NCBI GenBank assembly: GCA_003279855.1
Contig: QCGO01000008.1
Coordinates: 1-52,993 of the forward strand
Length of the DNA stretch: 52,993 bases
Direction: 5' to 3'
DNA from: Prochlorococcus sp. AG-388-E21
GTDB lineage: Bacteria > Cyanobacteriota > Cyanobacteriia > PCC-6307 > Cyanobiaceae
In this document: positions 15,974 to 33,038 of the stretch, piece after piece
Position numbering within the stretch: the stretch's first letter is position 1
Layout: every line of letters begins with the position of its first letter
Program-made: the position numbers and the translations under genes
Notes under the pieces: generated by a model
What the model was told of the DNA's origin: nothing
Seen by the model: only the letters and a program-made list of their open reading frames with translations
Database searches by the model: none

Positions 15974-16009
15974 TTAATAATTTTTTATTTGTATTTTTAA
16001 TGTGATTTT

Positions 16010-16906
<897 letters not shown>

Positions 16907-16920
16907 TTAATGAAGTGGTT

Positions 16921-18075: not shown

Positions 18076-18330
18076 TTAAATAGAAATTTTATCTAGAGGT
18101 AAAATATTTTGGGCCTCAATTGAGTCCAAATGAATTTCATTCTCTGTATCTTTATACAATCTTCTTGATTGTGGTGATTTAAGGGCGTTATTGTAATTTT
18201 CAATAAATTCCGAATCATCCAAAATAGATTTATTTTCTCTTTTAAAACTTTCTTTATAAGAATATTTGATATGCCCTATTTCTTGGGCTTGATTTGAGTT
18301 TTTGGGAGAAGTTGAATTTTTTATAATCAT
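18076..18330 (-). CDS. Hypothetical protein, 84 aa
   Basis: The ATG-started 84-residue protein is charged and probably soluble, with no recognised motif. It ends in a run with IHLDSIEAQNILPLDKISI. It lies between the ptx operon and the HNH gene in the distal part of the element. No family was recognised. It is supported only by length and ordinary composition. Confidence 0.4.
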   Translation of the reverse strand: MIIKNSTSPKNSNQAQEIGHIKYSYKESFKRENKSILDDSEFIENYNNALKSPQSRRLYKDTENEIHLDSIEAQNILPLDKISI

Positions 18331-18577
18331 TTATTATTTTTTTATATGATTGTCTTCAATATTCAAGGCGTAAAAATATAGAAGACATATATAACTTAAG
18401 ATTATTGGATTAAGAAGTTATTAAGTAAAAAATAAATTTGTTTAAAAAATTTCTAAATTTTGAAATTAATTATTTTGTGATTGGTTTTTGAAAATAATTT
18501 AGTTTCTTAAAGATAACGTTTTCTTAAATTATTTTTAAATTTCATATGACATAAATATAGATAATTGAATAATCTTA

Positions 18578-18979
18578 ATGCATATTGATGATGCAGTGTT
18601 TTTAGAGGATTTATGCCCTAAGCTCAAATTAAGATTTTGGCGAAAGTCTATTCATACATTTACGAGCAAAAGATGCATATATTGCGGAAAACCTTCAGAA
18701 TCTATTGATCATATATTGCCACGAAGTAAAGGAGGTTTAAACATAACAGAAAATTGTGTTCCAGCTTGTCTTCCATGCAATGGAGACAAATCAGATGAGA
18801 ATGTTTTTGATTGGTATAGAAAGAAAAAATTTTATGATCCTAGAAGAGCTATGGCTATTAGAGCATGGTTAGAGGGAGACTTAATATTATCTATAAGATT
18901 ATTACAATGGGCTAATCAAGAAGTTAAGGAAAATAAAGCAAATTTTGAACAAGAAGAATCAAATCTTGAAGCTGCTTAA
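18578..18979 (+). CDS. HNH endonuclease-like protein
   Basis: This 133-residue HNH (McrA-type) domain protein has zinc knuckles Cys33-x2-Cys36 and Cys64-x2-Cys67, the catalytic pair Asp44-His45 in IDHILPRSKGG, Asn68 and a KSDENVFDW tail. HNH nickases and nucleases occur in many marine cyanobacteria, in mobile elements and in the core genome alike. Here it lies in the distal arm of the integrated element, so it may serve DNA transfer or processing, though a housekeeping-type paralogue captured as cargo is also possible. The catalytic residues are intact. The target is unknown. Confidence 0.8.
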   Translation: MHIDDAVFLEDLCPKLKLRFWRKSIHTFTSKRCIYCGKPSESIDHILPRSKGGLNITENCVPACLPCNGDKSDENVFDWYRKKKFYDPRRAMAIRAWLEGDLILSIRLLQWANQEVKENKANFEQEESNLEAA

Positions 18980-19150
18980 CTATCAAAGATAATTAAGTTA
19001 ATGGAATATATTAAATATAAATAAGGTAAAAAACAGAAAAAACTTTTTTAGGAAAGCTTTGTAGTTTTTGACTAGAATAATCAATTACTTCTGCTATTTC
19101 CGAATCAGAGAGATAAAACAATAAAGGAATGCATTAACTTTGCAAGGAAA

Positions 19151-19351
19151 TTATAAAAAAGGAAAAATCATCATTTGTTTATATTTTGAGAAACCAATAA
19201 CTAAATTTAAACTTGATATCTTGTGAAATTTTTTATGCGTAAAATTACAAAATTCATTTTCATCTGAATAGTTAATTAAATCAGCTGCATTAATATTTGA
19301 ATCAAACCACAGGTCATATTCTATGTAATTTGGCTCTGCAAAATAAGTCAT
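19151..19351 (-). CDS. Hypothetical protein, 66 aa
   Basis: The ATG-started frame of 66 residues begins MTYFAEPNYIEYDLWFDSN and is acidic at first and basic and hydrophobic at the end. No motif was recognised. It lies in the sparsely coding distal part of the element, where short hypothetical genes of Prochlorococcus islands are typical. Whether it is real is uncertain. Confidence 0.35.
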   Translation of the reverse strand: MTYFAEPNYIEYDLWFDSNINAADLINYSDENEFCNFTHKKFHKISSLNLVIGFSKYKQMMIFPFL

Positions 19352-19688
19352 ACCAAATTTATTTCAAAAAGAAAAAGCTTCTCTATTTCATGTGAGGAGA
19401 ATATAGAAGCTAATTTCAGCTTAAAAGATTTAATGAAGTCTTCTTTAAGAATTAAATAAGATACGAATAAGAAAAAATAAAATATTATTTTAATTAAAAA
19501 AAAATGATTAGTTTATTTTTTGCATACTATAAAAAATTGCATCCAAGACCACTGCTTTGCTTTAAAAGAATTGAATGCATTATTAGAGTCACATTTTAAA
19601 GTTATAAGCAATTTATGAATTGTTTAAAAGAAAAAAAAGAAACAAAAAGAAAGTGATTTTTGCAAGTTATATTTTTAATAAAAAGTAA
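19352..19688. other. Gene-poor AT-rich stretch inside the element
   Basis: No convincing gene is visible. Only short frames of about 30 codons without ATG starts occur. The stretch separates the hypothetical gene from the HTH gene near the distal end and shows no clear repeat or hairpin. Confidence 0.5.
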
Positions 19689-20036
19689 TTATCTAATTTG
19701 TGTTTTTGCTTCTAAACCAACTAATTTCATAAGAACTTTTGCATTACTAGCAACTGCAGAATATTGTTTTTCTTGCATTGCTCTAAACATTGCAGTTTCT
19801 AGAGTGCATACTAATTTTGCTGTCATTTCAGGGCGATTTAAGTCCCCTTCCTCAATATCATCTTTCAGCAAAAGATAAGCATTAGAAGTGATCTGCCTAG
19901 CTCTTCTTCTTGAGATTCCATATTTTGCGGCAACAAAGGAAGTAATAGATGAATAGGCTTGTCCTTCAGCAACTAATTCAGCAGCATGTGCAACTCTTAA
20001 TTCGGTTTCTTGTTTAGTTGCTCTCTTTGACATCAC
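19689..20036 (-). CDS. HTH DNA-binding protein at the distal end of the element
   Basis: The 115-residue protein has an N-terminal helix-turn-helix (residues about 20-50: SSITSFVAAKYGISRRRARQIT). The rest is helical and ends with AVASNAKVLMKLVGLEAKTQ. This layout, HTH then a helical segment with a late leucine-rich helix, resembles small terminase subunits and related phage or satellite DNA-binding proteins, but I cannot assign it firmly. It lies about 255 bp from the attachment repeat and is transcribed inward. A role in element regulation or DNA packaging is possible; a plain transcription regulator is the alternative. Confidence 0.55.
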   Translation of the reverse strand: MMSKRATKQETELRVAHAAELVAEGQAYSSITSFVAAKYGISRRRARQITSNAYLLLKDDIEEGDLNRPEMTAKLVCTLETAMFRAMQEKQYSAVASNAKVLMKLVGLEAKTQIR

Positions 20037-20210
20037 CAGATCATATCCCCTATTTATATTATTTAAACATAAAAATTTATTGCTATCATTGCGATTTTGG
20101 ACTTAATAGAAAATTGTAAGTTCTATCTTTTCTTACTAAATATAATTTAAAAGACTATATTTATCAGTTATAACAATCAGTTATTTTGTTTATATTTGTC
20201 TGATAATAAC

Positions 20211-20229
20211 TGCACCTAGCTCTGCACCT
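20211..20229. repeat. Paired TGCACCT direct repeats near the distal end
   Basis: TGCACCT occurs at 20211-20217 and 20223-20229, with the same 12-bp spacing and orientation as the pair at 7508-7526. It lies 62 bp inside the element from the distal attachment repeat. It is a candidate binding site for the recombinase N-terminal domain or its accessory factor. Confidence 0.6.
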
Positions 20230-20290
20230 GAACTCTTAATATTACTGATACAAACCCTGATATAGATTACGATTAATGGCTTTTGAGAGT

Positions 20291-20334
20291 TGCATGCCAT
20301 GCAGGTGCTCTACCAGCTGAGCTATGGCCCCAAA
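20291..20334. repeat. Attachment-site copy (distal end): 5-prime half of tRNA-Ala
   Basis: This is a 44-bp perfect copy of 7371-7414. It comprises the first 41 nt of tRNA-Ala(GGC) on the minus strand plus three upstream bases, with no 3-prime half following. It is the remnant left when the element joined at the anticodon region. The sequence to its right (20335 onward) is therefore the tRNA's former upstream flank. Confidence 0.93.
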
Positions 20335-20523
20335 GGGATGTCAATCTACAAATAAATTATATATAATAAAATTACTACTTTTTGAATCTTAAATTAATTT
20401 TGATAAATATCACAATATAACTGATAACATAATTAATTACAAAATATCAAATATCAAATTATAAAGTTGTTTGAAAACACTTTAGAAATTTTATAAAAAT
20501 TTCCTAGATTAAATTTTGATAAA

Positions 20524-20970
20524 ATGAAAAAAATAAAATTCAAAATAAAAAAAAAAGAGTATTTAAGTTTCCTTCCAAGATTCTCAATACTTGCAGTAAT
20601 TACATATTTTTTAGATATAACAATTTTTAGTTTATTTAGAGCAGAAATAGGGTCGAATTTTGCTGCAATATTATCATTTGTCATTAGTCAGCTATTTTTA
20701 TTTACTTTATTAAAGCTATCATTAAATATAAGAGTTAAAAGTCTTAAACAGGGATTAATTATTCAATTTCTAATTGGTATAGGATCACTAATAATTCATT
20801 TAAGTATAATTAATTTAATTGATTTCATAATATTTAATTTAAATAAAGGTTTCTACTATCAAAATTACATTAAAAGTTTCTACTATGCTGTTTTTATAAA
20901 ATTAATATGTGGTTCTTTTGGTTATATTTGGTCTAGCATTATGATAAATATTTACTTATTTAAAAAATAA
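20524..20970 (+). CDS. GtrA-family membrane protein (lipid-linked sugar flippase-like)
   Basis: The 148-residue protein has four hydrophobic helices and a lysine-rich N-terminus. FLPRFSILAVITYFLDITIFSLF opens the GtrA domain and a final WSSIMINIYLFKK closes it. GtrA proteins flip undecaprenyl-phosphate-linked glucose or similar precursors across the inner membrane. It is convergent with a polytopic membrane protein gene, overlapping it by 19 bp, with DUF2304 and GT2 genes beyond. Together these resemble a gtrABC-like glucosylation set. It is the first gene outside the element. Confidence 0.8.
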   Translation: MKKIKFKIKKKEYLSFLPRFSILAVITYFLDITIFSLFRAEIGSNFAAILSFVISQLFLFTLLKLSLNIRVKSLKQGLIIQFLIGIGSLIIHLSIINLIDFIIFNLNKGFYYQNYIKSFYYAVFIKLICGSFGYIWSSIMINIYLFKK

Positions 20971-22148
20971 TTAAATTTTAAAAACTTTTCTTGAATTCGA
21001 GAAAAATAATTTTCAAATAAGAAAGGAACACACGCAGTAGTAATAATTGAATAAGGCAAAAAATATCTATGGTGAGAAGCATAACTTAATATTGGGATCA
21101 AAGGAATAAGACAAAACAAAAATGACTTAGCTAAATCTTTTCGGAAAACTGTAAAAATGCTTAAAGAACCTAAAGTATTTATTGTAAATAAAATTAAAGA
21201 AGACAATATATTAGTTATAAAGATATTGTTACTGATATATTTATCACCCATCTGATTAACTAGCCAGTTTGAAGTCATACCTATTGATTCTCTAGCACTT
21301 ATAAGATATACAATTTTTGAAACGAAAAGTTTGATTAAGGATAAAAAATAATCAAAAGAAAAATAATTTTGATTGCTTAGCGTAATTGATGCAGCACCCC
21401 AAATAGATTGGTACTTTATAAACATCGATAATTGTCCAAGAATTTGATAAAGATTAATTATTAAAAGTGCAAAAATAACAGAAAGGAATAATACTTTCTT
21501 TATTGATATTAGATTTCTTATCCCATTAATTATTTTTATAGGAAGCTTAGTAAAAAGTAAAAATGGAATTACTATAAATAATTGATTACGAAACAAACAA
21601 ATAAATAAAATCAATAAAAAATTATTTAAAAAGAAAATATTATTTTTTTGATCATTTTTTAATTCAATTAAACTAACTAATAATATTGATATTCCTAAGC
21701 ATCCAATCACATCAGTAGATGGCTTAAATGAAAATAGCAAAATATAGAAATTCAAAATACTAAGAATTAAAGATGCGATCTTAGTTAACTTACTACTCTC
21801 ATATTTGAATATAAAAATATATCTCAAAATAATTGCTTGAGATAATGACATAAGAACTAAAGAAATAAAAGCATATATAAATAATTTACTAGTTAAGTTT
21901 ATTGAAATAGATTTTATAAAAAATGCCAAAAACATAAAGCCTGCGTTTGGAACTATCTCTCCAAAGTTAAACAAATCGAATAACTTAGAGATATCTTCAT
22001 AACGCTCTAGGTCTGGTAAAGAAAAAATAAAGTTTGATCTATTATCAATAAAAGAAATAAAAATATAAAAAAATGGGAGACAAAATAACTTACCCAATAA
22101 TAAAAACTTAAATAAAAAATTATTTTTATTTAAAGCTATCTTTTTCAT
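20952..22148 (-). CDS. Polytopic membrane protein, candidate lipid-linked-sugar glycosyltransferase
   Basis: The 398-residue protein has roughly ten hydrophobic helices and no recognisable catalytic motif. An extracytoplasmic stretch with PDLERYEDISKLF near residue 50 and a later HHRYFLPYSII are compatible with GT-C type or GtrC-like transferases that take sugars from a polyprenyl carrier. It overlaps the DUF2304 gene upstream by 23 bp and sits beside GtrA. The assignment is contextual. An O-antigen polymerase-like role is the alternative. Confidence 0.55.
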   Translation of the reverse strand: MKKIALNKNNFLFKFLLLGKLFCLPFFYIFISFIDNRSNFIFSLPDLERYEDISKLFDLFNFGEIVPNAGFMFLAFFIKSISINLTSKLFIYAFISLVLMSLSQAIILRYIFIFKYESSKLTKIASLILSILNFYILLFSFKPSTDVIGCLGISILLVSLIELKNDQKNNIFFLNNFLLILFICLFRNQLFIVIPFLLFTKLPIKIINGIRNLISIKKVLFLSVIFALLIINLYQILGQLSMFIKYQSIWGAASITLSNQNYFSFDYFLSLIKLFVSKIVYLISARESIGMTSNWLVNQMGDKYISNNIFITNILSSLILFTINTLGSLSIFTVFRKDLAKSFLFCLIPLIPILSYASHHRYFLPYSIITTACVPFLFENYFSRIQEKFLKFNYFLNK

Positions 22149-22503
22149 TTTGATTAAGTTCTTTTATGTTTGCGAAAGATTTATTTATTGAGAGATGTTG
22201 AACTATCTTAGATATTCTTAATTCTAACTCTAATATTTTTCTCACCAAAATAAGATTTACACCGGTAGAAACTATAATAAATAAATATAAAACAGAGTCT
22301 GTTGCTTCCCCAACACTTAACATTTTGGGTAATAAATCCCATACTTTTTCGGAAAAAATAATTGAGAAAAGCAATGCTAGTCCAAAAAAAATAACAAAAA
22401 TCTTTTCTATAGCTTTTATACTACTCGTCCTTGCTACAAGAAAAGAGAGGCCATACATTGATAAAACTATTAAAAGGAAAATAACTTTCCCAAGTGTCGT
22501 CAT
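22126..22503 (-). CDS. DUF2304 membrane protein
   Basis: The 125-residue protein has three hydrophobic helices followed by an amphipathic tail (LVRKILELELRISKIVQHL). This is the pattern of DUF2304 proteins, which are regularly found next to DPM1-type GT2 genes. The start overlaps the GT2 stop by 4 bp. Because the neighbouring GT2 lacks membrane helices of its own, this protein may anchor it. That role is inference. Confidence 0.7.
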   Translation of the reverse strand: MTTLGKVIFLLIVLSMYGLSFLVARTSSIKAIEKIFVIFFGLALLFSIIFSEKVWDLLPKMLSVGEATDSVLYLFIIVSTGVNLILVRKILELELRISKIVQHLSINKSFANIKELNQNEKDSFK

Positions 22504-23180
22504 AATCTTCTAAATAAATTAAAAAATGCAATATTCACTGCATTAACAGGATTTTGAGATCTTTTATTATTATATTCCACCTTGATAGGATACTCTCTTA
22601 ATCTACATTTGGATTTAAATAATTTATAACTTATTTCAGTAGCATGGGCCATATCATGATTTTTAATTGGTAATATATTTTTTTCAGTAATATTTTTACT
22701 TATTACCCTTAACCCATTATGAGCATCTGTAAGTTTTACAGAGTAAAAAAATCTTTCATAAAGAACTGCAAGTCTAAGAATTAACTTTTTAAAAATCGGA
22801 ATATTGTAATAATGCTCCTTTTTTGCAAATCTTGTACCAATAACTGCATCTAAACCTTCTTCCCTAGCAAGATTAACCATATTAAAGGCATCAATTACTT
22901 TATTTTGTCCATCGCCATCAAAAGTAATTGCATATTGATAAAATTTATTTTTCAAAAATAATTCTAAGCCAGTTTCAATAGCTGCTCCTTGCCCAAGGTT
23001 AAATAAATGCTGAACAATCTGAACTTCTAATTTTTCTGCAATTAAGGCAGTATTATCTTCGCTACCGTCATCAATTACCAAAATATTTTTAAAATATTTC
23101 TTTAATTCATTTATAACCCCATTAATATTTTCTTCTTCATTAAATGCTGGAACTATAACTAAAGAATCACTATTGATCAT
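22500..23180 (-). CDS. Family 2 glycosyltransferase, DPM1/GtrB-like
   Basis: This is a 226-residue GT-A fold enzyme. IVPAFNEEENI opens the domain, IDDGS binds the nucleotide, and FDGDGQ is the metal-binding DxD region. HNGLRVISKN and a late EYPIKVEY are typical of polyprenyl-phosphate glucosyl and mannosyl transferases. The C-terminal helices found in GtrB are absent. It would load a sugar onto a polyprenyl phosphate at the cytoplasmic face, to be flipped by GtrA and used by the polytopic protein. The sugar is unknown. Confidence 0.85.
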   Translation of the reverse strand: MINSDSLVIVPAFNEEENINGVINELKKYFKNILVIDDGSEDNTALIAEKLEVQIVQHLFNLGQGAAIETGLELFLKNKFYQYAITFDGDGQNKVIDAFNMVNLAREEGLDAVIGTRFAKKEHYYNIPIFKKLILRLAVLYERFFYSVKLTDAHNGLRVISKNITEKNILPIKNHDMAHATEISYKLFKSKCRLREYPIKVEYNNKRSQNPVNAVNIAFFNLFRRL

Positions 23181-23231
23181 AAAAATATTTTTCTAAGATA
23201 ATAATTATAACTTAAATATTAAATTGAAGAT

Positions 23232-24695
23232 TTATTTTATTTTACTTATTAACTTAATTGCTCTTGCTATGAAATAGTAGGTTGGATTAGCGGTAGGCAT
23301 ATATTCAGAAGAAGAGGCGTCTAATATTTTTATATTTTTTAAATAATCTTCATTTATAAGAAGTGATCCATCATTATCAGTTTTTTTAAATAAAGTGCTC
23401 GCATAATGAAGATCCGCACCTTTTGCGACAATAATAGGTTTGAAAAATAAATTATAAATTTTTCTTTTTCTTAATTCCAAAATTAAAGAAGGCCATATAT
23501 TATTAAAAACATATTCGTGAAAGTTTTTAATAAATTTTCCTTTTATATAGATTTTTCCACTCTTATAAAATATTCTTGACCTAGTAAATCTAGATGACAA
23601 AACTATATTTGAAATATAAATTCTTCTCAAAAACCAACCAGGGGATAATGGAATATTTGAGAATCTATTTATAAATTTGAAAATTAATACTATTATTGGC
23701 CTCAAAAAATTTATTTTTTTTCGGTTTAAAGATTGATAAATAATTTCTTTTATTGAGCCTAATAAGGGAATAAAATTAACATAAACATTATCATTCTTTA
23801 GCTTACACTCTAGGTTGATATTAGCAGTCTCAAAATGATTTACAGGATATGGTAAGAATGGTAGAAAACATAAGGTTGCTAGTAAGGGATGATGTTTAAT
23901 AATATCTTTCTCAATAGGCTTATAATTAAATGATTTCCTAATTAATCTATAAGATCCAATAGCACCACAACAAACAAAAATATAATCATATTTTTCATGA
24001 AATCTATTCTGATTACCATTAGAAAGTTGTATTTCTAATTCCAATAATTTTTTATTTTTATTATCTAATTGGATTTTATTTACCCTCCCATCAATAATTT
24101 TATAATCAATTTTTTTGTCAAAAGAATTACCAAATATAGCTTTTGAGAAATTAAAACCTGGCAAATTATTTAAAAGACATTTATTTTCCCAAATTGCTAA
24201 TTTAGAGGATTTTAATTCAAATCTTTTTGTAGATAATCTATCAAAATAGTCTTTAATATTTTTTTGTTTATGACTTTTTTTTGAGTAAAATTCCTGAACA
24301 TCTAATATTGGAATTATGCTTTTTAAAAATTCTTTCTCAAATTTTCCTAATTTTAATTTTCTTATATCATCATCTAAAGCCGCGCATGCCAAATTAGCTC
24401 CCCAGTACTTAGCTAATCCCATCTCACAAGCAAGCTCTAAAGCAAAAAAGTCATTTGTATCTTTTGAGTAATATAAATCACTTACAGATTTGCATCTAAT
24501 TACATCTTCCCTTTTAAGTTTTGGAGAAATGTTAATATTTTGATTTTGATTTTTTAATTTAAATTTTTTATCTCTCAAATAAGTCTGAGCAGATTCTAAA
24601 GTGGGACTTATACATTCAACATTAAATCCTTTTTGCGAGAGATATTTACTAACAACATAACCAATTATTCCATTTCCTATAACTGCAATTTTCAT
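23232..24695 (-). CDS. GMC-type FAD-dependent oxidoreductase
   Basis: The 487-residue flavoprotein has an N-terminal dinucleotide motif IAVIGNGIIGYVV, a middle CCGAIGSYRLI segment that closes the FAD domain, and a GMC-type C-terminus (GADLHYAST, ILDASSSEYMPTANPTYYFIARAIKLI). The middle is divergent and basic. The substrate is not known; GMC enzymes oxidise alcohols on sugars, sterols and other small molecules. It lies between a GT2 gene and an SGNH gene, all on one strand, which suggests surface-glycan or lipid tailoring. Confidence 0.7.
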   Translation of the reverse strand: MKIAVIGNGIIGYVVSKYLSQKGFNVECISPTLESAQTYLRDKKFKLKNQNQNINISPKLKREDVIRCKSVSDLYYSKDTNDFFALELACEMGLAKYWGANLACAALDDDIRKLKLGKFEKEFLKSIIPILDVQEFYSKKSHKQKNIKDYFDRLSTKRFELKSSKLAIWENKCLLNNLPGFNFSKAIFGNSFDKKIDYKIIDGRVNKIQLDNKNKKLLELEIQLSNGNQNRFHEKYDYIFVCCGAIGSYRLIRKSFNYKPIEKDIIKHHPLLATLCFLPFLPYPVNHFETANINLECKLKNDNVYVNFIPLLGSIKEIIYQSLNRKKINFLRPIIVLIFKFINRFSNIPLSPGWFLRRIYISNIVLSSRFTRSRIFYKSGKIYIKGKFIKNFHEYVFNNIWPSLILELRKRKIYNLFFKPIIVAKGADLHYASTLFKKTDNDGSLLINEDYLKNIKILDASSSEYMPTANPTYYFIARAIKLISKIK

Positions 24696-24775
24696 GATTT
24701 TTTCTCTTAAAGAAATTATTAAATTAAAAAAAAGACTCGTATTATTTTAATTATTTTAAAATTTTTCATTTCATA

Positions 24776-25879
24776 TCAGAATTTAATATTTCGATAAATA
24801 TAGTTACCAATAAGTCTTGATCCGTCTGAATTAGTGTGGACGTAATCATATACATCTGAATCTGAGATAATACTTTCTAAATACATAGGCAGAATTTTTA
24901 TTTTACTTTTTTTTTCAATATTATTATTAACCGAACTTTGTATATTATATAGGTACATTAAATCATTGCAGATACTTTTCTTTGTATTGTATTCTTTATA
25001 CTTTTTTGGATGCCTATCAAAAACAGAAGTCTTTGAAATAAAATTGCAGCCTGGTATTTGTTGCTGAATTATAAATATTTCTGAATTTGGGAAACTTTTT
25101 TCTAATTCATTTATTAGAGAAATAAAAGTTTCCTTGTACCCAGATTCTAAATAAATATTTAGATTAGATTCTCTTAGATCAAATTGCTCGCCTGGATTTA
25201 CAAAGTCTTCTTGACGTCTTAGATGAGTTGTAAGTATTGGAGTATTGTTATCTTTATAAAATTTTATTCTATTAAGAATATTCTTAATCTTAGAAAAATA
25301 AAAAGAGTTTTCAGAAAGTATATCTTTACTAGATTGATTTTTAATGAATGAATTACTATTCATAAATGAAATATCTGAATGCCCAGAGTAGTAAATAACA
25401 AATTTAACTTCTTTATCCTTTAATGCCTTTGAATGCCATGATCTAACAGATAGCAATGTCCCATAAATACTATGACCATCTACTCCTCCATTTACGAAAT
25501 CATATTTTGGAATTAAATTATCTAAAGTATCTTGCCATGTTTCGCCTTCTGATACATATCTTTGATCTGTAGTTGAAGCACCTATTGTTAAAACTATTGG
25601 CTTTTTTGATTTATTCTCCATACTTCTATATCCAAGTTTATCCCGCGAATAAGAAATATTTACCTTTTTATCTGAAGAATAAATTCTCCTGGCATCGAAT
25701 TTCAAATCTACATCCTTTATAAAATTTGGTAAGGTAACATAATTTTCTTTGAAGACATAATTTCTTATCCAATTACCAAAAAACAATTCAGTAACAAAAA
25801 AGAAAAGGGGGGAAAATAAAGATAAATATAAAATGTAACTTAAAAAAAATGAAGATTTTTTTTTCTTACTTTTAAACAT
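24776..25879 (-). CDS. Membrane-anchored SGNH-hydrolase-like protein
   Basis: The 367-residue protein has a lysine-rich N-terminus, one transmembrane helix (about 12-30) and an extracytoplasmic SGNH domain. Block I is TIGASTTD, block II is VNGGVDGHS, block III is SGHSD (histidine where Asn is usual), and block V is DYVHTNSDG with the Asp-x-x-His pair. Such domains add or remove acyl groups on glycans. It is downstream of the carbamoyltransferase and small membrane protein genes on the same strand. Polysaccharide O-acyl modification fits but is not proven. Confidence 0.7.
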   Translation of the reverse strand: MFKSKKKKSSFFLSYILYLSLFSPLFFFVTELFFGNWIRNYVFKENYVTLPNFIKDVDLKFDARRIYSSDKKVNISYSRDKLGYRSMENKSKKPIVLTIGASTTDQRYVSEGETWQDTLDNLIPKYDFVNGGVDGHSIYGTLLSVRSWHSKALKDKEVKFVIYYSGHSDISFMNSNSFIKNQSSKDILSENSFYFSKIKNILNRIKFYKDNNTPILTTHLRRQEDFVNPGEQFDLRESNLNIYLESGYKETFISLINELEKSFPNSEIFIIQQQIPGCNFISKTSVFDRHPKKYKEYNTKKSICNDLMYLYNIQSSVNNNIEKKSKIKILPMYLESIISDSDVYDYVHTNSDGSRLIGNYIYRNIKF

Positions 25880-25906
25880 TTAATTCAAAATAATTAAAAT
25901 TCACTG

Positions 25907-26092
25907 CTAAATAGCTATGTAAGTAAATGGGATTAAAACCTGCACTACACTTACTATTAAAATTAAAATTACTACAAACAAGAATAGAGTTATTAAAGCT
26001 GCTTGCATAGGAGTAGCGTTATCCCATACAGATAAGATTAAATGTTTAAAAAGCTTAAATATGCCCAAAGAATTTACTCTCCAATAATCCAA
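25907..26092 (-). CDS. Small membrane protein, DUF5989-like partner of the carbamoyltransferase
   Basis: The frame encodes about 53-61 residues: a short amphipathic head (LGIFKLFKHLILSVW), one long hydrophobic helix and a tail ending IPFTYIAI. This layout is that of DUF5989 proteins, which commonly follow NodU-type carbamoyltransferase genes. A TTG at 26092 would overlap the carbamoyltransferase by 38 bp. A second TTG at 26068 reduces this to 14 bp and matches the family length better. Its function is unknown. The adjacency suggests it anchors or regulates the carbamoyltransferase. Confidence 0.6.
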   Translation of the reverse strand: MDYWRVNSLGIFKLFKHLILSVWDNATPMQAALITLFLFVVILILIVSVVQVLIPFTYIAI

Positions 26093-27803
26093 AATCTGTA
26101 ATTATGTACCTTAGGGGATGCCTAGCCGAAAGCATTAATACATCTATCAAATCGTAGCATGTAGGATCTCCACTAGCATTGAGTGATGAATTTGCTAAAA
26201 TTTCGATATCAAATTCTTTTAGTTCTCTGAATAGTTTATCTAGAAACGAATTATCTTCAATTATTTGAAGTCTAGCCGTCTCGTCAATATGACTAGTTGG
26301 GAAATTCGAAGAACCACTACCTACTTTGCAAGAGCAAGTAGCACCCATAGATTTATAGCTTTCCATTAGTTCGCCTCTTAAATCATAGTATTTCTTAGCA
26401 GTTTCTAAATTCATGCATGGAGCCGTAGGCCTAAATGGGCTTCTATTTTTAATTACACTATTTAGATAATTAACTGCCTTTGCATTTTTTCCATCACATA
26501 TTAATGAACGATGGCCTAATGCTCTTGGACCAATTTCGATGTTGCCAATTAAAGTTCCAATAACTTCTCCCTTAGAAATTAAATTAGCTGCTATTTTTAA
26601 AGCCTCATTAATATTATTGGTTAGTATTTTAAAATCTTTATCTAAAATTTTTTTTGCTGTCTTGAGCTGATTTTCATAATTGTATTGAGAGGGAAATAAA
26701 TCTGGTTTAGGTAAAAACTTTACAGTTTTAACACTGTTTTTTAGAAAACCATAATATGCAGCGCCTATAGCAGAACCTGCATCACCTGGGCTCGGAGGAA
26801 CTATTAATTTTTCTACAAATGGCAAAGATGCTATTGAATCAAGAGATGCAGAGTTCATTGCTACTCCTCCTGAAAATAAGAAAGTAGTGGTATTAGTAAG
26901 CGAATAAGCATATTCAAATAACATTCTTAGATTATTGATTACTAGAGATTGAGCTCCAGCAGCGATATCAGCATATTTTTGAAAATCCTTATTTTCTGTT
27001 GATAGAGATTCAAATGGGTTTCTAGGCTTTCCAAGTAATGTAATAAGTTTTTCGCTAAAGGAATCATTTGGTGAAATATGGTAACTAAAAAAACTCATAT
27101 CTTGTTCAAATCTTTTAGTCACAATGTCGAAATTTAATAAGCTCGATACTTTTTTTGCTAATTGACTTTTTTTGTTACCAAAAGCTGCGAGACCCATAAC
27201 TTTATACTCTCCTTCATTAACTTGAAAACCTAAAAAATCTGTAATTGCAGAATAAAGTAATCCAAGAGATACAGGATATTTGCACGTCCATATTTCTCTA
27301 ATATCGTAAGGATTATTAACCTGACTAATTGAAGAAGTACTTCTATCTCCAAATCCATCAACAACTACTGAACAAATATTCTTTTGATTATTTGAGTATG
27401 GAAGAGCATTAAGGGTATGAGATAAGTGATGATCTAAATAAATTAATTTTTTTTCAAGACCAGGAAAAATAGAGGCCAAATCTAAAAAACATCCGATCGA
27501 GGACTTTTTAAAGTTTCTTAATTGATGTGAAATTAATGGTGCACTTTTTGGGAAATAAAGTGTAGCTGTTTTTATTGGATGTAAAAAAGAACTAAGTGGT
27601 CTTTCATAAAAAACTACAGCTTTAATTTCACTTATATTTAGTTTATTATTTTCGATTATTTTTCTTATTGATCTTTTAGGGAAAGATTTATCTCCTTTTA
27701 TTCTGCTTAAAGATTCCTCTCTACAGTAATCTATAAGTTTAGCATCATTATTTACTAGTGCTGCAGCCGATTCATGATTATAGCCAGATAAACCTAGATA
27801 CAT
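26055..27803 (-). CDS. NodU/CmcH-family carbamoyltransferase
   Basis: The 582-residue enzyme has an N-terminal Kae1-like domain (SGYNHESAAALV at the start, DHHLSHTLNALPYS with the metal-binding histidines near 125, FSGGVAMNSASL near 315) and a C-terminal YrdC-like domain with GPRALGHRSLICD near 425. Members make carbamoyl-AMP from carbamoyl phosphate and ATP and transfer the carbamoyl group to a hydroxyl on a sugar or natural product. It is 3 bp from the ferritin-like gene upstream and overlaps the small membrane gene downstream. The acceptor is unknown; a surface glycan is likely. Confidence 0.88.
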   Translation of the reverse strand: MYLGLSGYNHESAAALVNNDAKLIDYCREESLSRIKGDKSFPKRSIRKIIENNKLNISEIKAVVFYERPLSSFLHPIKTATLYFPKSAPLISHQLRNFKKSSIGCFLDLASIFPGLEKKLIYLDHHLSHTLNALPYSNNQKNICSVVVDGFGDRSTSSISQVNNPYDIREIWTCKYPVSLGLLYSAITDFLGFQVNEGEYKVMGLAAFGNKKSQLAKKVSSLLNFDIVTKRFEQDMSFFSYHISPNDSFSEKLITLLGKPRNPFESLSTENKDFQKYADIAAGAQSLVINNLRMLFEYAYSLTNTTTFLFSGGVAMNSASLDSIASLPFVEKLIVPPSPGDAGSAIGAAYYGFLKNSVKTVKFLPKPDLFPSQYNYENQLKTAKKILDKDFKILTNNINEALKIAANLISKGEVIGTLIGNIEIGPRALGHRSLICDGKNAKAVNYLNSVIKNRSPFRPTAPCMNLETAKKYYDLRGELMESYKSMGATCSCKVGSGSSNFPTSHIDETARLQIIEDNSFLDKLFRELKEFDIEILANSSLNASGDPTCYDLIDVLMLSARHPLRYIITDFGLLESKFFGHI

Positions 27804-27806
27804 TAA

Positions 27807-28526
27807 TTAAATAATAGATTTTGATTTAATATCCATGAGATTTTTTCCTTCTCTCTGAAATTGATCAAGATCAATTAGATAAATTATTTTACCAGCGATA
27901 AAGGCTAAAGAATAGTATAAAGGTGTTAATATTTTGTCCAAAAATTTTAAATTTTTATCGTAGAACTTTCTACCTTTGTTTTTCACGCTCTCTCTGAACC
28001 TATAAATCATTAACTGCCAAGGTTGTAATTTAGGATAATACTTAAGGAAATGTTGTTCAGCCAATCCATGATGCCTTAACTCATCACTCATTATTTGGCT
28101 GATTTGATCTCTCTCATTTGAATTTTTTTTAAATAATTTTAAAATTCCTTCAAATGAATCTCTAGCGAGAAGTTCATTTGTATAAACATAAGCTATAAAA
28201 TCTTTTAATTTCATAGTTTCTATTAAATAACCTTCTCGAGATAAGTAACCCTTAGCAATCAAAGAATTAGTATTGAATCTATATTTTCTTGAAATTTCTT
28301 CTCCAAATTTTCTCCCGTATTTTCCTAATATTGAATAAAAAGTTTTGCTATGGTTATATTCATCTTTTGAATGTTGAAAATATCCATAGGCAAACGTGTC
28401 TTTTTCTGATAATTTACATGCTGCAAGCATTTCCAAAGCTGATCCATATTCAGCACTCAAAGTTTCATTTAAAATATTTAAATAGCGGTTCTCTTCCTCT
28501 TTATTAAGCTTTAGTGTTTTATTCAT
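27807..28526 (-). CDS. Ferritin-like diiron protein
   Basis: The 239-residue, mostly helical protein has a ferritin-like iron-binding pattern. EYGSALEM gives the first glutamate (about 30), KDEYNHSKTFY is an E-x-x-H pair, NELLARDSF gives a third acidic ligand, and SDELRHHGLAEQHF holds the second E/D-x-x-H. Such proteins can be oxidases or hydroxylases in small-molecule tailoring, or carboxylate-bridged diiron desaturase-like enzymes. It heads the leftward unit with the carbamoyltransferase. The substrate is not inferable. Confidence 0.7.
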   Translation of the reverse strand: MNKTLKLNKEEENRYLNILNETLSAEYGSALEMLAACKLSEKDTFAYGYFQHSKDEYNHSKTFYSILGKYGRKFGEEISRKYRFNTNSLIAKGYLSREGYLIETMKLKDFIAYVYTNELLARDSFEGILKLFKKNSNERDQISQIMSDELRHHGLAEQHFLKYYPKLQPWQLMIYRFRESVKNKGRKFYDKNLKFLDKILTPLYYSLAFIAGKIIYLIDLDQFQREGKNLMDIKSKSII

Positions 28527-28762
28527 AATCTAATAATAACATCAAATAATTTTTGTTAATAATATTAAAAACCTCTATAAGAGAAGTTGTTTCAGCATTA
28601 AAAGAAAAAATTTTTAATTTACTATAACTTTACCAAATAAAAACGATTTGCATAATTCAATGCTTGTTTATAAAAAAATACATAAACTTTATTATTTGGT
28701 TTGACATGATTAACTTCTTTTATATTATTAGAGTTAAATTCAGATAATAAAGTAAATTATAA

Positions 28763-29419
28763 TTGACCAAAACAAATTCATTACATACAGAAGATTTATA
28801 TCTTTGGCTTATTTCACCTAAGGCAGATTTAAAGCCAATTACGAAAAAAGAAATAGATTGGAGCAAGAATTTATCAGAAGCAAGGTCATTTCAATACCGA
28901 CACTCAAGAGGTTATGTTCGTAAAATTTTATCAGGAATTATAAATATACCTCCCTTAGAAATTCCTCTTAACGCTCCTCCAGGTTATCCACCATCTTTAG
29001 CAAAAGGATTTGGATATCTAAGTATTAGTCATTGCCAGGATAATCTTTTAATAGGATGGTGTAAAGAAAATATAGGAGTAGATATAGAAAGAACAGATAG
29101 ATCTATTAACGCAAGAAGTATACTAAATAGATTTTATTCAAAAACTGAAAAAGAGTTTTTGATGAATTTTGATGATAAAGATCTCAAAGATTACATTCTT
29201 CAATATTGGGTGAGAAAAGAAGCAGCTATAAAGTGGCAAAAAGGGTCTATTTTTTATGATCTTCCTAGATGGGCGGTAATTGATAAATATAATAAAATTA
29301 CCAACCAATCTATTAAATGTTCATTATTTTCATTCTTGTTGCATCATAAAAATTGGTATATATCTTTGGCATGCAACAATAATTTTAATAATATAAAACC
29401 TAATATTTATGAGATATAA
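28763..29419 (+). CDS. 4-prime-phosphopantetheinyl transferase (Sfp/HetI type)
   Basis: The 218-residue protein keeps PPTase motifs: LSISHCQDNLLIG (P1), IGVDIERTDRSINA (P2, with the Mg2+-binding Asp-x-Glu) and WVRKEAAIKWQKGS (P3, with the catalytic W-x-x-K-E-A). It transfers the phosphopantetheine arm from CoA to acyl carrier protein. In Prochlorococcus this is likely the sole PPTase and so serves fatty-acid synthesis. The first start codon is TTG at 28763; no nearby ATG exists. It is convergent with lexA. Confidence 0.85.
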   Translation: MTKTNSLHTEDLYLWLISPKADLKPITKKEIDWSKNLSEARSFQYRHSRGYVRKILSGIINIPPLEIPLNAPPGYPPSLAKGFGYLSISHCQDNLLIGWCKENIGVDIERTDRSINARSILNRFYSKTEKEFLMNFDDKDLKDYILQYWVRKEAAIKWQKGSIFYDLPRWAVIDKYNKITNQSIKCSLFSFLLHHKNWYISLACNNNFNNIKPNIYEI

Positions 29420-29434
29420 ATTGATATTTAATAA

Positions 29435-30052
29435 TTAAACTTTCCTCCAAACGGCTAAAAGTTTTCCTTGAAAAATAACATCCCCAAAATTTAATTCAAT
29501 TGGTTCATAAGCTGGATTTGCTGCCTCAAGAAATATTTTTCCTCCTCTCTTAAAAAAATATTTTAAGGTTGTTCCTAAACCTGGGACCATCGCACTTACA
29601 ATTGTTCCATTTCTTAAAGAATTTGAATCTTTAATTGGCTCCATCAAAACCATATCTCCATGTGCAATACAAGCATCTATCATTGAATCACCATTAACGG
29701 TTAAAGCGAAAACATCCTTTTTTTGTAAAACTTCAGATAAATCCAAATTTTCATTAACATCAGAATAAGTTTCAATCAAACCTCCCGCAGCAACAGAACC
29801 CATAATTGGAACTACCCCAGAGATTTCATCAATTATTTGCATAGTTCTAGCTTTGCCTTCTTGCCACGATATATATCCTTTATCTTGTAGATGTTTTAAA
29901 CGACTTTGAATTGGGGCAGGAGATTTAAGACCCATAGCTTGCATCATTTGCCTAATCGAAGGGCTATGTTGAAAGTCCCTCATATAGTTCTTTATCCATG
30001 CATAAAGCTCATTCTGAGCATCTGTAAGCTTATCGCCTTCGGAAGTTGTCAT
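29435..30052 (-). CDS. lexA: LexA repressor
   Basis: The 205-residue protein has an N-terminal winged HTH (about 30-55, SPSIRQMMQAMGLKSPAPIQSRLKHL), the self-cleavage site Ala89-Gly90 in GSVAAGGLIE, and the Ser123 (NGDSM) and Lys164 (TLKYF) protease dyad. The dyad and cleavage site are complete, so RecA-stimulated autocleavage is expected. This contrasts with some cyanobacterial LexA proteins that lost it. Two LexA-type operators overlap its promoter, which indicates autoregulation. It is convergent with the PPTase gene. Confidence 0.93.
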   Translation of the reverse strand: MTTSEGDKLTDAQNELYAWIKNYMRDFQHSPSIRQMMQAMGLKSPAPIQSRLKHLQDKGYISWQEGKARTMQIIDEISGVVPIMGSVAAGGLIETYSDVNENLDLSEVLQKKDVFALTVNGDSMIDACIAHGDMVLMEPIKDSNSLRNGTIVSAMVPGLGTTLKYFFKRGGKIFLEAANPAYEPIELNFGDVIFQGKLLAVWRKV

Positions 30053-30053
30053 A

Positions 30054-30083
30054 AAAACATTTGTACTCTAATACATTTGTACC
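30054..30083 (-). promoter_or_regulatory. Tandem LexA (SOS) operators upstream of lexA
   Basis: On the minus strand AGTACAAATGTTTT (30067-30054) and GGTACAAATGTATT (30083-30070) resemble the cyanobacterial SOS box AGTAC-N3-TGTWCT. Each keeps the GTAC half and an AATGT half. They lie 2 bp before the lexA start codon and 16 bp apart, consistent with autoregulation. Confidence 0.65.
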
Positions 30084-30109
30084 TCTTTGAAAGGGAAATG
30101 GCAATCTTT

Positions 30110-31036
30110 TCAAGAAAGAAGACAAGATAAAAGTGCTTGTTGAACATGCATCCTATTCTCTGCTTGTTCAAAAACTCTACTTTTTTTACATTCAATAACC
30201 TCGTCAGTTATCTCTTTTGATCTATAAGCAGGAAGACAATGAAGGATAATTGCATCTTTATCAGCCTTAGCTACTAATTTAGTATCAATAGTAAATCCTT
30301 CAAAATCTTTGTCTTTCTCTTTTTTTTGATTTTCTTCTCCCATAGATGACCAAACATCTGTGTATAAAACATTTGCTCCTGAAACAGCAGAATTAGGATC
30401 ATTAGTTATTATTAACGCATTCTTATTGTTATTTATTTCTTTAGCTTTATTAATTACGAAGGGATTAGGTTCGTAACCTTTAGGACATGCAATTCTAACT
30501 TCAACACCTAATAGTGCTCCACACAATATTAGAGAATTTGCAACATTATTACCATCACCTATAAATGCGAGAACTATATTTTTAAGATTATGGAATTCCT
30601 CCTTAATTGTTAAAAAATCTGCTAGAGCCTGACATGGATGTTCTAAATCTGTAAGAGCATTGATAATAGGTTTTGTAGACCATTTTGCATATTCTTCTAA
30701 ATCTGAATGATTAAAAGTTCTAATTGCAATCACATCACAATATTTACTTAGAACTCTTGCAGTATCTTTAATTGGTTCACCTCTTCCTATCTGTGAGGTT
30801 GTAGGATTTAGATCAATCGTAGTTCCACCAAGTCTTGACATGGCTACTTGAAAACTAACTCTTGTACGAGTAGATGACTTATCAAAAATCAGACCTAATA
30901 CTTTATTCTTTAATTCAATATTAAAATCTTGATTTTTAAAATTTTCTGCAAGATCTAAAATATGAAAAATTTCTTCAATTGTTATATCCAAGCTTGATAA
31001 AAAATTATTATTAGCAAGCTTTTTAGGTTTAAGCAT
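30110..31036 (-). CDS. argF: Ornithine carbamoyltransferase
   Basis: The 308-residue cytosolic enzyme makes citrulline from ornithine and carbamoyl phosphate in arginine synthesis. Carbamoyl phosphate is bound by STRTRVSF (about 55) and HPCQALADF (about 132). Ornithine is bound by the DVWSSMGEE region and HCLPAYR near the C-terminus. Length and motifs are normal for ArgF, and the HCLP motif excludes aspartate transcarbamoylase. It lies between lexA and ftsH on the same strand. Confidence 0.95.
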   Translation of the reverse strand: MLKPKKLANNNFLSSLDITIEEIFHILDLAENFKNQDFNIELKNKVLGLIFDKSSTRTRVSFQVAMSRLGGTTIDLNPTTSQIGRGEPIKDTARVLSKYCDVIAIRTFNHSDLEEYAKWSTKPIINALTDLEHPCQALADFLTIKEEFHNLKNIVLAFIGDGNNVANSLILCGALLGVEVRIACPKGYEPNPFVINKAKEINNNKNALIITNDPNSAVSGANVLYTDVWSSMGEENQKKEKDKDFEGFTIDTKLVAKADKDAIILHCLPAYRSKEITDEVIECKKSRVFEQAENRMHVQQALLSCLLS

Positions 31037-31065
31037 AAATATTTTATTGTAAGATCTAGGTTCTA

Positions 31066-32928
31066 TTATGCAGGCATTTTAGTTTCTGCAAGAAGACTCT
31101 TGAGATCTTCCCCTTCAATAACTTCTTCTTGAAGAATTTTTTGAGAGATAGATTCGAGTAATGGTAAATTGTTCCTTAGAATGTTTAATGCTGTTTCATG
31201 AGCATCATCAACAAGATCTCTAACCTCTTTATCTATAGCTTGAGCAGTAGCATCACTAACAGATCTTCTTGGGTTATTACCATTACCTAAAAACTGACCA
31301 CCACCTTGTTTGTCATATGCAAGAGGACCAAGGATATCACTCATCCCAAATGTACCTACCATCTGCTCTGCTATGTCAGTTGCTCTTTGTAGATCATTTG
31401 AAGCACCTGTAGTAATTTTTCCAAATACTACCTCTTCTGCAGAACGACCTCCTAACAATGTTGCTATTTGACCTTTCAATTCATCTTTAGAATTAAGAAA
31501 TCTTTCTTCAGTAGGAAGCTGGAGGGTATATCCTAATGCACTCATACCTCTAGGAACAATCGAAATCTTTGCTACTTTTGATCCTCCAGGCATAAGGTGT
31601 CCCACAATTGCATGACCTACTTCATGATAAGCAACAACCTTCTTCTCATCATCTTGTAAAACACGGCTCTTCTTTTCTAAACCAGCCACAACTCTCTCAA
31701 TCGCTTCACTTAAATCCTGTTGTTCAACACTTTTTCTTTTTGCTCTAGCTGCTAATAGAGCAGCCTCATTAACCATATTCGCTAAATCTGCCCCGGCGAA
31801 TCCACTTGTAGCTTGAGCTATAGAATCTAAATCAATAGAATCTGATAATTTAACCTTTTTGGTGTATATCTCTAAAATTGTTTTTCTACCTGACAAATCT
31901 GGTCTGTCTACTAATACTTGTCTATCAAATCTACCTGGTCTTAATAATGCCGCGTCAAGTACTTCTGGCTGGTTTGTTGCGGCTAGAACTATTACAGGTT
32001 TATCTGCTGAAGCAAATCCATCCATTTCTGTAAGTAGCTGGTTTAAAGTTTGTTCTCTTTCATCATTTCCACCAACTACACCCATCGATCCTGAACGACT
32101 CTTACCGATAGCATCTAATTCATCTATAAAAATAATGCAAGGAGCTTTCTTCTTCGCTTGTTCAAATAGATCTCTTACTCTAGCGGCACCTGCTCCTACA
32201 AAAAGTTCAACAAATTCAGAACCTGAAATAATAAAGAAAGGAACTTCAGCTTCTCCTGCAACTGCTTTAGAAAGAAGAGTCTTTCCAGTCCCTGGAGGTC
32301 CAACTAAAAGAACACCTTTAGGAATTCTTGCACCAATATCGGTATATCTTTCTGGTTTCTTTAAAAAGTCAACTATCTCTGTTAATTCATCCTTAGCCTC
32401 ATCAACACCAGCAACATCATCGAAAGTTACCTTTGATTCATCATCAGGGACATAAACTTTAGCCTTACTTTTAGTAAAACTTAATGCACCTTGAGCGCCT
32501 CCTCCACCCATACTCCTTCTAGCAAAGAATTGTAGTACTAAAATAAAAATTAAAGGTGGAACTACCCAGCTAAGGACAGTAGAGAAGAAATTTGGTTTTT
32601 TAGGTGGCGCTGCCGCGAATTCTACTCCTTTATTTTCTAACCTTTGAGGAAGGTCCATATCAAAAATTGGAGTAGTTGCTAATACTGAAGGAGCTCCTTC
32701 TTCTGCTCCATTTAGTTCATATCTAATTTGTTCTTGTGTAATATAAGCTCTCTTAACTTCACCATCATTAACCTGATCTATAAACAAGGAGTAAGGAACT
32801 CTTGGGATTTGCATATTTTGATTAGGAAACAAGCTACTAAATAAAAGTAGTGCTCCAACACCAATCAAAATAATATTCACTATTCCAAATCTTCTATTAG
32901 GTTGATTATCGTCTTGTCTTATTGGCAT
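31066..32928 (-). CDS. ftsH: ATP-dependent zinc metalloprotease FtsH
   Basis: The 620-residue membrane protease has two transmembrane helices (about 15-35 and 110-130) flanking a periplasmic or lumenal domain, then an AAA domain with GPPGTGKT, IIFIDELDAIG and the arginine-finger region LLRPGRFDRQ. A C-terminal zinc protease domain has the HEVGH motif (about 435). It degrades damaged membrane proteins; cyanobacterial FtsH complexes recycle photosystem II D1. Which paralogue of the cyanobacterial set it is cannot be told with certainty. It precedes argF by about 30 bp. Confidence 0.95.
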   Translation of the reverse strand: MPIRQDDNQPNRRFGIVNIILIGVGALLLFSSLFPNQNMQIPRVPYSLFIDQVNDGEVKRAYITQEQIRYELNGAEEGAPSVLATTPIFDMDLPQRLENKGVEFAAAPPKKPNFFSTVLSWVVPPLIFILVLQFFARRSMGGGGAQGALSFTKSKAKVYVPDDESKVTFDDVAGVDEAKDELTEIVDFLKKPERYTDIGARIPKGVLLVGPPGTGKTLLSKAVAGEAEVPFFIISGSEFVELFVGAGAARVRDLFEQAKKKAPCIIFIDELDAIGKSRSGSMGVVGGNDEREQTLNQLLTEMDGFASADKPVIVLAATNQPEVLDAALLRPGRFDRQVLVDRPDLSGRKTILEIYTKKVKLSDSIDLDSIAQATSGFAGADLANMVNEAALLAARAKRKSVEQQDLSEAIERVVAGLEKKSRVLQDDEKKVVAYHEVGHAIVGHLMPGGSKVAKISIVPRGMSALGYTLQLPTEERFLNSKDELKGQIATLLGGRSAEEVVFGKITTGASNDLQRATDIAEQMVGTFGMSDILGPLAYDKQGGGQFLGNGNNPRRSVSDATAQAIDKEVRDLVDDAHETALNILRNNLPLLESISQKILQEEVIEGEDLKSLLAETKMPA

Positions 32929-33038
32929 GATTTATATCGATTGTGGGTTTATTATAAACTAAACGAACGAGTTCCGTACCTGTATAACTTTTTTTGGGTA
33001 AGAACCGAACGGTGTTTTAATCAAAAACCATTAATAAA

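Follow-up and report, generated by a model that had tools for sequence, protein, structure and literature searches.

DltX of the Dlt system (DltA-D plus DltX) is a protein of about 50 amino acids (aa). In the accessible part of the literature, DltX, a membrane microprotein, and PatA, itself an MBOAT protein, are described as bearing a C-terminal FXYXXF motif whose tyrosine takes an acyl group and passes it to an SGNH protein, with experimental support for PatA/PatB and DltX (PMC12148441). Gene clusters for paralytic shellfish toxins list in succession the carbamoyltransferase gene sxtI, sxtJ, the 165-bp sxtK and the GDSL-like sxtL, with sxtJ and sxtK given as 'unknown' in the portion of the report available (PMC2679770). 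Here we describe a four-gene unit that shares features with both arrangements. It was found in contig QCGO01000008.1 of Prochlorococcus sp. AG-388-E21, the 52,993 nucleotides (nt) of which were analysed as one stretch (the window), and it recurs in other genomes as genes for a ferritin-like protein, a carbamoyltransferase, a 53-aa microprotein and a membrane-anchored SGNH-type protein.

All four genes lie on the minus strand of the window. The ferritin-like, predicted diiron protein (27807..28526; 239 aa; from the list of open reading frames, ORFs) is followed by an O-carbamoyltransferase of the NodU/CmcH/TobZ/GdmN type (26055..27803; 582 aa), a single-helix microprotein (25907..26068; 53 aa) and an SGNH/GDSL-type protein with a membrane anchor, the proposed transferase (24776..25879; 367 aa). 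A gene for an FAD/GMC-like oxidoreductase comes next (23232..24695; 487 aa; weak Rossmann matches), which we regard as an accessory outside the conserved unit. The original prediction had described five genes on one strand, and five minus-strand ORFs within 23232-28526 bear this out. The end that it gave to the run did not hold, however, as three further genes on the same strand (22500-23180, 22126-22503 and 20952-22148) prolong it.

We compared 29 distinct loci, namely the window, L007, L008-L030 and L039-L042. L005 and L006 (the contigs of L011 and L013) and L034 (the genome of L019) were excluded, and the close relatives L022/L025 and L015/L016/L018 were retained. The ferritin-like and carbamoyltransferase genes, whose co-occurrence the original prediction had proposed to check, were adjacent on one strand in all 29 loci, with a gap of -26 to +18 nt. 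The microprotein gene was present in 28 of the 29 and lay directly downstream in 24; in L019, L020, L021 and L024 it is on the opposite strand, 2.1-2.2 kb off, past two SGNH-type genes, and it was not found in L023, where the contig stops after the carbamoyltransferase. An N-terminally membrane-anchored SGNH-type gene accompanied the pair in 27 loci. The GMC-like gene, in contrast, had a homologue near the ferritin-like, carbamoyltransferase and microprotein genes (the triad) only in the window and L014 out of 25 loci. The five-gene cluster was to be given up if its genes did not co-occur in other genomes; four of the five do co-occur, and for those four the refutation fails.

Triad loci span Cyanobacteria and Alphaproteobacteria (Prochlorococcus, SAR11, SAR116 and other alphaproteobacteria), a wider range than the picocyanobacteria in which the original prediction had proposed a survey. 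A search of 151 genomes of the window's family with the ferritin-like protein yielded four carriers including the window genome, i.e. 3 of the 150 others; in each of those three the carbamoyltransferase and then the small protein come next, as in the window. A scan of contigs with an alignment of four ferritin-like sequences yielded 23 loci. Eleven were from Prochlorococcus (single-cell and metagenome-assembled genomes), with ferritin relatives 52-68% identical to the window protein, and twelve were alphaproteobacterial (nine labelled SAR11, one SAR116, two other). Among 247 genomes of the SAR11 order there were five carriers including the genome at the centre of the search (4 of 246 others), and the four new ferritins were very divergent, with 23-32% identity to that of the window. 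None of 288 alphaproteobacterial genomes searched carried the ferritin-like protein, the centre genome aside. The unit is thus rare in the genome sets searched, in which many genomes are incomplete. Its gene surroundings vary widely between loci, and some close relatives share theirs. A phage origin found no support, as 45 pattern matches in viral contigs included zero relatives.

The longest ORF of the microprotein encodes 53 aa in 25 of the 28 loci (61 in the window, 62 in L028 and 50 in L042). In the window this ORF runs from 26092 to 25907 and gives 53 aa if the TTG at 26068, inferred from relatives, is the start; the 53-aa gene then shares 14 nt with the 3' end of the carbamoyltransferase gene. 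All 28 microproteins end in [VIL]PFTY[IV]A[ILVF] followed by the stop codon. Among the 23 that were aligned, P, F, T, Y and A of this tail are invariant, and the last seven residues are the most conserved stretch of the protein. When the C-terminal hexapeptide is set against FXYXXF, its F and Y are invariant (28/28) and its final residue is Phe once in 28. Endings of the type F.Y..[FILVM] were counted in 1550 distinct ORFs (40 aa or longer) from loci mostly selected for these genes. Of the 31 ORFs with such an ending, 29 belong to the microprotein family or to DUF5989 and two are others. Positive charges are concentrated ahead of the single helix, so that the tail should face the periplasm. 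By analogy with DltX and PatA, the tail suggests a specific shuttle mechanism, with F-T-Y-I-A-I (25910..25927, minus strand) as the proposed acyl-shuttle motif and Tyr50 as the proposed carrier in the window. The original prediction had missed this motif.

DUF5989, which we take to be the SxtK family, was compared with the microprotein. It occurred in three genomes out of 59 from the window's class, and matches were obtained in 50 of 289 alphaproteobacterial genomes (49 above the cut-off). Its proteins are of the size of the triad microprotein. Among the best 30 of 56 matches, from which weaker members may differ, all 30 end in PF[IV]YT[ILV]F, an exact FXYXXF; a carbamoyltransferase gene adjoins in 30 of 30 loci and an SxtJ gene in 28. 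We also inspected wider flanks of 20 DUF5989 regions (19 of the 30 and one more match). Nine of them (L088, L090, L093, L095, L097, L099, L103, L104 and L107) have an adjacent SGNH-type gene; eight of the nine match a GDSL model with E from 3.9e-19 to 1.7e-4, four of these above a curated cut-off, and L090 gives 0.055.

The original prediction had called the microprotein DUF5989-like. No PF19451 match was obtained for it (at a threshold of E 0.1) or anywhere in the window genome, but DUF5989 profiles align with the triad microprotein over its full length (hhalign E 7.5e-5, probability 62%), a score that one-helix composition may inflate. By these comparisons the window microprotein is at most a distant relative of DUF5989. 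The name DUF5989 was absent from the literature searched, which covers few papers from subscription journals.

In some loci both kinds of module are close to each other. DUF5989-type microprotein genes stand beside further SGNH-type genes near the triad in L009 (3526-3684; 2454-3509) and L030 (13576-13725), with no second carbamoyltransferase within the stretch fetched; one donor enzyme may serve two shuttles there. On the contig of L013, a few kb from the triad, L006 1352-5017 encodes a carbamoyltransferase, SxtJ, a DUF5989-type protein and an SGNH-type protein, the last of these assigned by eye and without a GDSL match in Pfam. In a genome of the same genus (L113/L033), argF and a DUF5989 module are about 21 kb apart, and the module is on the side that matches the position of the window's ferritin triad.

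We defined a strict sequence criterion for the SGNH-type partners and applied it alike to near genes, far genes and control islands. By this criterion 21 of the 27 SGNH-type loci were recognized; the other six (L009, L025, L029, L039, L040 and L041) were counted through cluster membership or inspection. No SGNH-type gene was found in L012 and L023, where the unit is at a contig edge. Within 2.6 kb of the unit 25 of 141 genes passed, compared with 1 of 287 more distant genes and with 0 of 116 from the matching islands of seven genomes of the genus that lack the triad. Since the criterion was drafted after the families had been seen, its p-value of 3.5e-12 overstates the enrichment. The partners belong to several families, namely A9 to A12 and that of the window protein. 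BLAST with one family does not recover another, and the SGNH signature residues are common to them. This pattern suggests a constant donor half combined with exchangeable SGNH-type proteins. In hhalign comparisons with the SGNH neighbours of DUF5989 modules, A9 gave E 9.8e-5, A11 6.4e-6, A12 4.8e-5 and the window protein 2e-7. For the window protein, the SGNH call of the original prediction has behind it this profile comparison and a Pfam match under the curated cut-off (PF00657 E 7.8e-4).

The carbamoyltransferase is the sole gene of the window cluster that is firmly named by domain scans, as had been predicted (Carbam_trans_C, PF16861, 102.5 bits, E 2.3e-29; Carbam_trans_N, PF02543, 113.6 bits, E 1.8e-32; cut-offs 27 and 24). 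Its profile matches the structures of novobiocin carbamoyltransferase, GdmN and TobZ, with which it has the enzyme family and conserved residues in common. H125, H126, H129 and D341 are invariant in 29 of 29 proteins; H125, H129 and D341, in the Kae1-like domain, align to residues of GdmN and novobiocin carbamoyltransferase, and from TobZ we presume that these three have a metal-site role. Unlike the window enzyme with its partners, TobZ, GdmN and novobiocin carbamoyltransferase have antibiotics as substrates, and to our knowledge none has a microprotein, SGNH or ferritin-like partner.

The ferritin-like protein has no Pfam or NCBIfam match, and the call made by the original prediction is sustained by predicted fold and ligands instead. 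An AlphaFold2 model from 24 sequences (pLDDT 82.2, pTM 0.70) shows a four-helix bundle with a long helix after it. The best matches to this model in the PDB were Dps-like and bacterioferritin structures (Z 16.4, root-mean-square deviation 2.8 over 148 residues), a score slightly above the background of Z ~14 that helical bundles without kinship can reach. Foldseek returned nothing at E 0.001 or better for the model (best 9.9e-3). A comparison of the family with the PDB by sequence yielded no ferritin-like match, and its best hit, a ribosomal protein (E 0.0029, 35 positions), was judged noise. The E/ExxH/E/ExxH ligand set is invariant in all 29 proteins (invariant residues E26, E32, E56, H59, E118, E149 and H152). 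With the predicted four-helix bundle and these ligands, the protein is placed in the ferritin-like diiron superfamily. All 24 aligned proteins also have a hydrophobic C-terminal stretch (about residues 200-218 in the window; 19-residue mean 1.49-2.21), which suggests membrane association and is borderline as a membrane helix; five of the 24 are below 1.6.

Divergence of the ferritin-like protein parallels that of its neighbours. Pairwise identities of ferritin-like protein and carbamoyltransferase correlated with r 0.89 over 253 pairs of 23 loci (0.85 in alphaproteobacteria and 0.66 in Prochlorococcus), and those of ferritin-like protein and microprotein with r 0.81 overall and 0.83 in alphaproteobacteria; relatedness was not removed from any of these values.

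Genomes with the triad were also searched for known membrane-crossing acyltransferases and for SxtJ. Neither MBOAT (PF03062) nor AT3 (PF01757) was matched in seven triad genomes including the window's, of which completeness is known for the window genome only; as a control, the models matched 3 and 10, respectively, of 14 named genomes. AT3 was accordingly dropped as a candidate for the missing acyl-moving enzyme. SxtJ (PF19588) was found in three of 14 triad genomes, with no match in the window genome. The module thus occurs mostly without SxtJ, and without known membrane-crossing acyltransferases in the genomes searched.

These results allow the unit to be set beside the described systems. 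Like Dlt, it combines a membrane-anchored SGNH-type partner with a one-helix microprotein whose C-terminal tail reads F-x-Y-x-x-hydrophobic, as far as the accessible parts of PMC12148441 and PMC11035591 describe them. Unlike Dlt, it was without an MBOAT (DltB) in the seven genomes, has a carbamoyltransferase and a ferritin-like protein on the donor side, and ends its motif mostly in an aliphatic residue. The likeness to peptidoglycan O-acetylation by PatA/PatB is that an acyl-tyrosine on a C-terminal hexapeptide would pass its group to an SGNH serine, which we propose by analogy with the available part of PMC12148441; in PatA, however, the motif is on the MBOAT itself, whereas in the unit it is on a separate microprotein and an MBOAT was not found. 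No MBOAT having been found in the seven genomes, the unit is not a member of the DltX/PatA acyl-shuttle family. With the sxtI-sxtJ-sxtK-sxtL genes, compared by description only and from the portion of the source available, it shares a carbamoyltransferase, a small protein and a GDSL-lipase homologue. Modules of carbamoyltransferase, SxtJ and DUF5989 resemble it in the size and tail type of the small protein, but the window genome lacks SxtJ and has the ferritin-like protein instead. Because it has no SxtJ and no PF19451 match, the window unit is outside an SxtIJK-type definition.

We propose, with an even chance of being right, that the four-gene unit is an MBOAT-free relay that carbamoylates envelope glycans, in which a membrane-associated diiron protein takes the place that SxtJ has in DUF5989 modules. 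Chemistry, membrane crossing and topology, acceptor and diiron role would be as follows. By analogy with the acyl shuttle of DltX and PatA, the group would go to Tyr50 in the periplasmic FTYIAI tail of the microprotein, and the membrane-associated ferritin-like protein would act as partner. The membrane-anchored SGNH protein would then move it to its own serine and on to a hydroxyl of a surface glycan, and SGNH families would be swapped for different acceptors. The diiron site could act on the donor half, either by oxidizing the group or its carrier in an O2-dependent reaction or by serving as a membrane partner akin to SxtJ. Donor-side placement is most likely, because the ferritin-like protein never parts from the carbamoyltransferase in the loci seen while the SGNH partners change.

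The original prediction had offered a surface glycan or a metabolite as the target. A putative surface glycan appears the likelier of the two, in view of the SGNH anchor, the variable island by lexA and an adjacent gene of the polyprenyl-phosphate-sugar type. The predicted families of the unit support the carbamoyl transfer and the SGNH-type acyl-handling enzyme that had been proposed; of the 'two oxidative enzymes', a predicted diiron-type protein is retained and the GMC-like protein is not a member.

Several observations weigh against the proposed relay. The loci are related, and the counts are not independent. The final tail residue is Ile, Leu or Val in 27 of 28 microproteins instead of the Phe of FXYXXF, and a Lys near the C-terminal end of the helix in 10 of the 23 aligned microproteins weakens the topology argument. 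An MBOAT-like tunnel protein was not found, which leaves the membrane crossing of the group unexplained, and GdmN and TobZ carbamoylate soluble small molecules and are not known to have a microprotein or SGNH protein. The C-terminus of the ferritin-like protein showed no similarity to SxtJ (hhalign probability 0.05%) and was rejected as an SxtJ homologue; the ferritin-microprotein correlation was weak among Prochlorococcus (r 0.38). Assignment of the SGNH partners rests on signature residues and profile comparisons. Pfam is weak on them (0.0074 for L007 and 0.053 for L006/L013, besides the window value given above; E 0.12 for L009 6421-7572) and gives no GDSL match for L010, the second gene of L020, L027, L029, L041 and L042. 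A10 is the weakest family against the SGNH neighbours of DUF5989 modules (hhalign E 0.0078), and an AlphaFold2 model of the window SGNH protein, from one sequence, was unusable beyond an N-terminal helix at 10-42 (pLDDT 39).

Other accounts of the same genes have to be considered. The plain reading of a diiron protein beside a TobZ/GdmN-type enzyme is cytosolic tailoring, in which the former adds a hydroxyl to a small metabolite or a lipid-linked sugar and the latter carbamoylates that hydroxyl, with the microprotein as an anchor and the SGNH protein as a separate acyl-editing enzyme. The hydrophobic C-terminal segment could put the ferritin-like protein at the membrane, and GT2 and DUF2304 genes adjoin the unit in the window. 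We nevertheless consider this account unlikely, as it leaves unaccounted for the conserved last seven residues of the microprotein, the strong enrichment of a membrane-anchored SGNH-type protein beside the pair and the similar layout of DUF5989 modules (SGNH-type gene adjacent in 9/20). It is improbable that the ferritin-like protein serves in iron storage or redox sensing, as a mere safeguard or regulator of the pathway, while plain carbamoyl is transferred. Its closest solved folds are indeed Dps-like proteins and bacterioferritins, but its strict pairing with one carbamoyltransferase (29/29), the correlated divergence of 0.89 (uncorrected for relatedness) and the extra hydrophobic C-terminus of the family speak against such a role.

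A carrier function of the microprotein could also be denied. It may be a subunit that serves in structure or regulation, docks by its C-terminal motif and bears no covalent cargo, beside an SGNH protein that works on the same glycan as an independent acetyl- or other acyltransferase or esterase; the C-terminal aromatic motif could merely dock to the SGNH protein, the last residue is usually not Phe, and an MBOAT partner was not found. Against this, the tyrosine is invariant in 28 of 28 microproteins and in the 30 of 30 DUF5989 proteins examined, at the acyl-carrying position of DltX/PatA, and the seven genomes yielded no AT3 or MBOAT from which an independent SGNH transferase could be supplied; we therefore regard a mere docking subunit as quite improbable. 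A chance neighbourhood in a hypervariable island, where the window's island genes were not found beyond lexA in seven relatives, can practically be dismissed, and for the four-gene unit it is refuted by adjacency in 29 of 29 loci over Cyanobacteria and Alphaproteobacteria in differing contexts. For the GMC-like gene (2/25), chance may suffice.

If the proposed relay is right, the uncharacterised DUF5989 family and its relatives would gain a concrete, testable function, and the principle of the tyrosine acyl shuttle would reach past MBOAT enzymes and from acyl esters to carbamates. It would also mean an oxygen-dependent surface modification common to Prochlorococcus and SAR11, which are among the most abundant bacteria of the ocean. 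In both, encounters with phages and grazers are probably governed by surface glycans, and masking of phage receptors is a plausible physiological role. A more general idea is possible, though doubtful: bacteria could move activated carbamoyl across the membrane without MBOAT by means of a carbamoyltransferase, an SxtJ or diiron membrane partner, an SGNH transferase and a microprotein in which a tyrosine acts as carrier, with the diiron centre of the ferritin branch oxidizing the group. If true, the mechanism would be general, in view of the DUF5989 matches in 50 of 289 alphaproteobacterial genomes; the 'unknown' SxtK would be a carrier and the GDSL-type SxtL the final transferase, not a decarbamoylase; and the ferritin branch would yield a new, oxidized surface modification. 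No earlier statement of the idea, or of a link between DltX and SxtK or a carbamoyltransferase, stood among the papers listed from the literature searched, with its small share of subscription-journal papers.

The GMC-like gene was rejected as a core member on its occurrence, and the GMC call itself lacked profile support: there was no GMC_oxred_N/C match and no PDB match up to E 1, only weak Rossmann-type hits and a C-terminal motif that is GMC-like by eye. Farther along the same strand lie a GT2 gene for a polyprenyl-phosphate-sugar synthase-like protein (22500..23180; PF00535 E 1.2e-19; NF058614 PpgS 184.5 bits, under its cut-off of 370), whose cluster is represented at 4 of 25 loci with the window counted, and a DUF2304 membrane protein gene (22126..22503; PF10066 36.5 bits, above the cut-off). 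Both are outside the unit, and their position beside it fits a periplasmic glycan modification. The next gene, at 20952..22148, encodes a multi-helix membrane protein without Pfam or NCBIfam match, possibly a GT-C glycosyltransferase (by eye).

The unit lies in a variable island beyond lexA. FtsH, ArgF and LexA form a conserved edge in seven of seven same-genus genomes compared, and the window genes from 18076 to 29419 were not found beyond lexA in these seven relatives (tblastn E 1e-5); two of the seven hold homologues of the window's more distant sugar-type genes. Scans of the window yielded no RNA family above gathering scores within 20000-33000 and no excess over shuffled sequences of promoters (79 sites vs 68.5, standard deviation 9.1) or terminators (2 vs 2.6).

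Beside the triad, the island carries a phosphopantetheinyl transferase (PPTase) gene (28763-29419, plus strand). It was rejected as a member of the unit, having no homologue in the other 24 loci compared. Its product is 34-38% identical to PPTases of the relatives and is not the usual one of the genus. In the relative G746 the usual PPTase gene lies between rarA-like and peroxiredoxin genes, and the equivalent place in the window genome (L085 2196-2743) holds two short degraded matches; the island PPTase thus seems to have displaced an essential core gene.

Elsewhere in the window, 12391-17706 is a cluster for phosphonate/phosphite use, with PhnC, PhnD and PhnE transporter genes, a D-2-hydroxyacid dehydrogenase gene (possibly for phosphite dehydrogenase) and genes for a PhnY-like methylphosphonate hydroxylase and a PhnZ-like HD oxygenase. 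A tRNA-Ala gene followed by a likely integrase gene (by eye, no Pfam match) and an AAA_25 ATPase gene marks 7338-10617 as a probable mobile island edge. Finally, 19689-20036 encodes a 115-aa helix-turn-helix-like protein without family match, relatives of which lie just downstream of the module in L009 (7826-8208).

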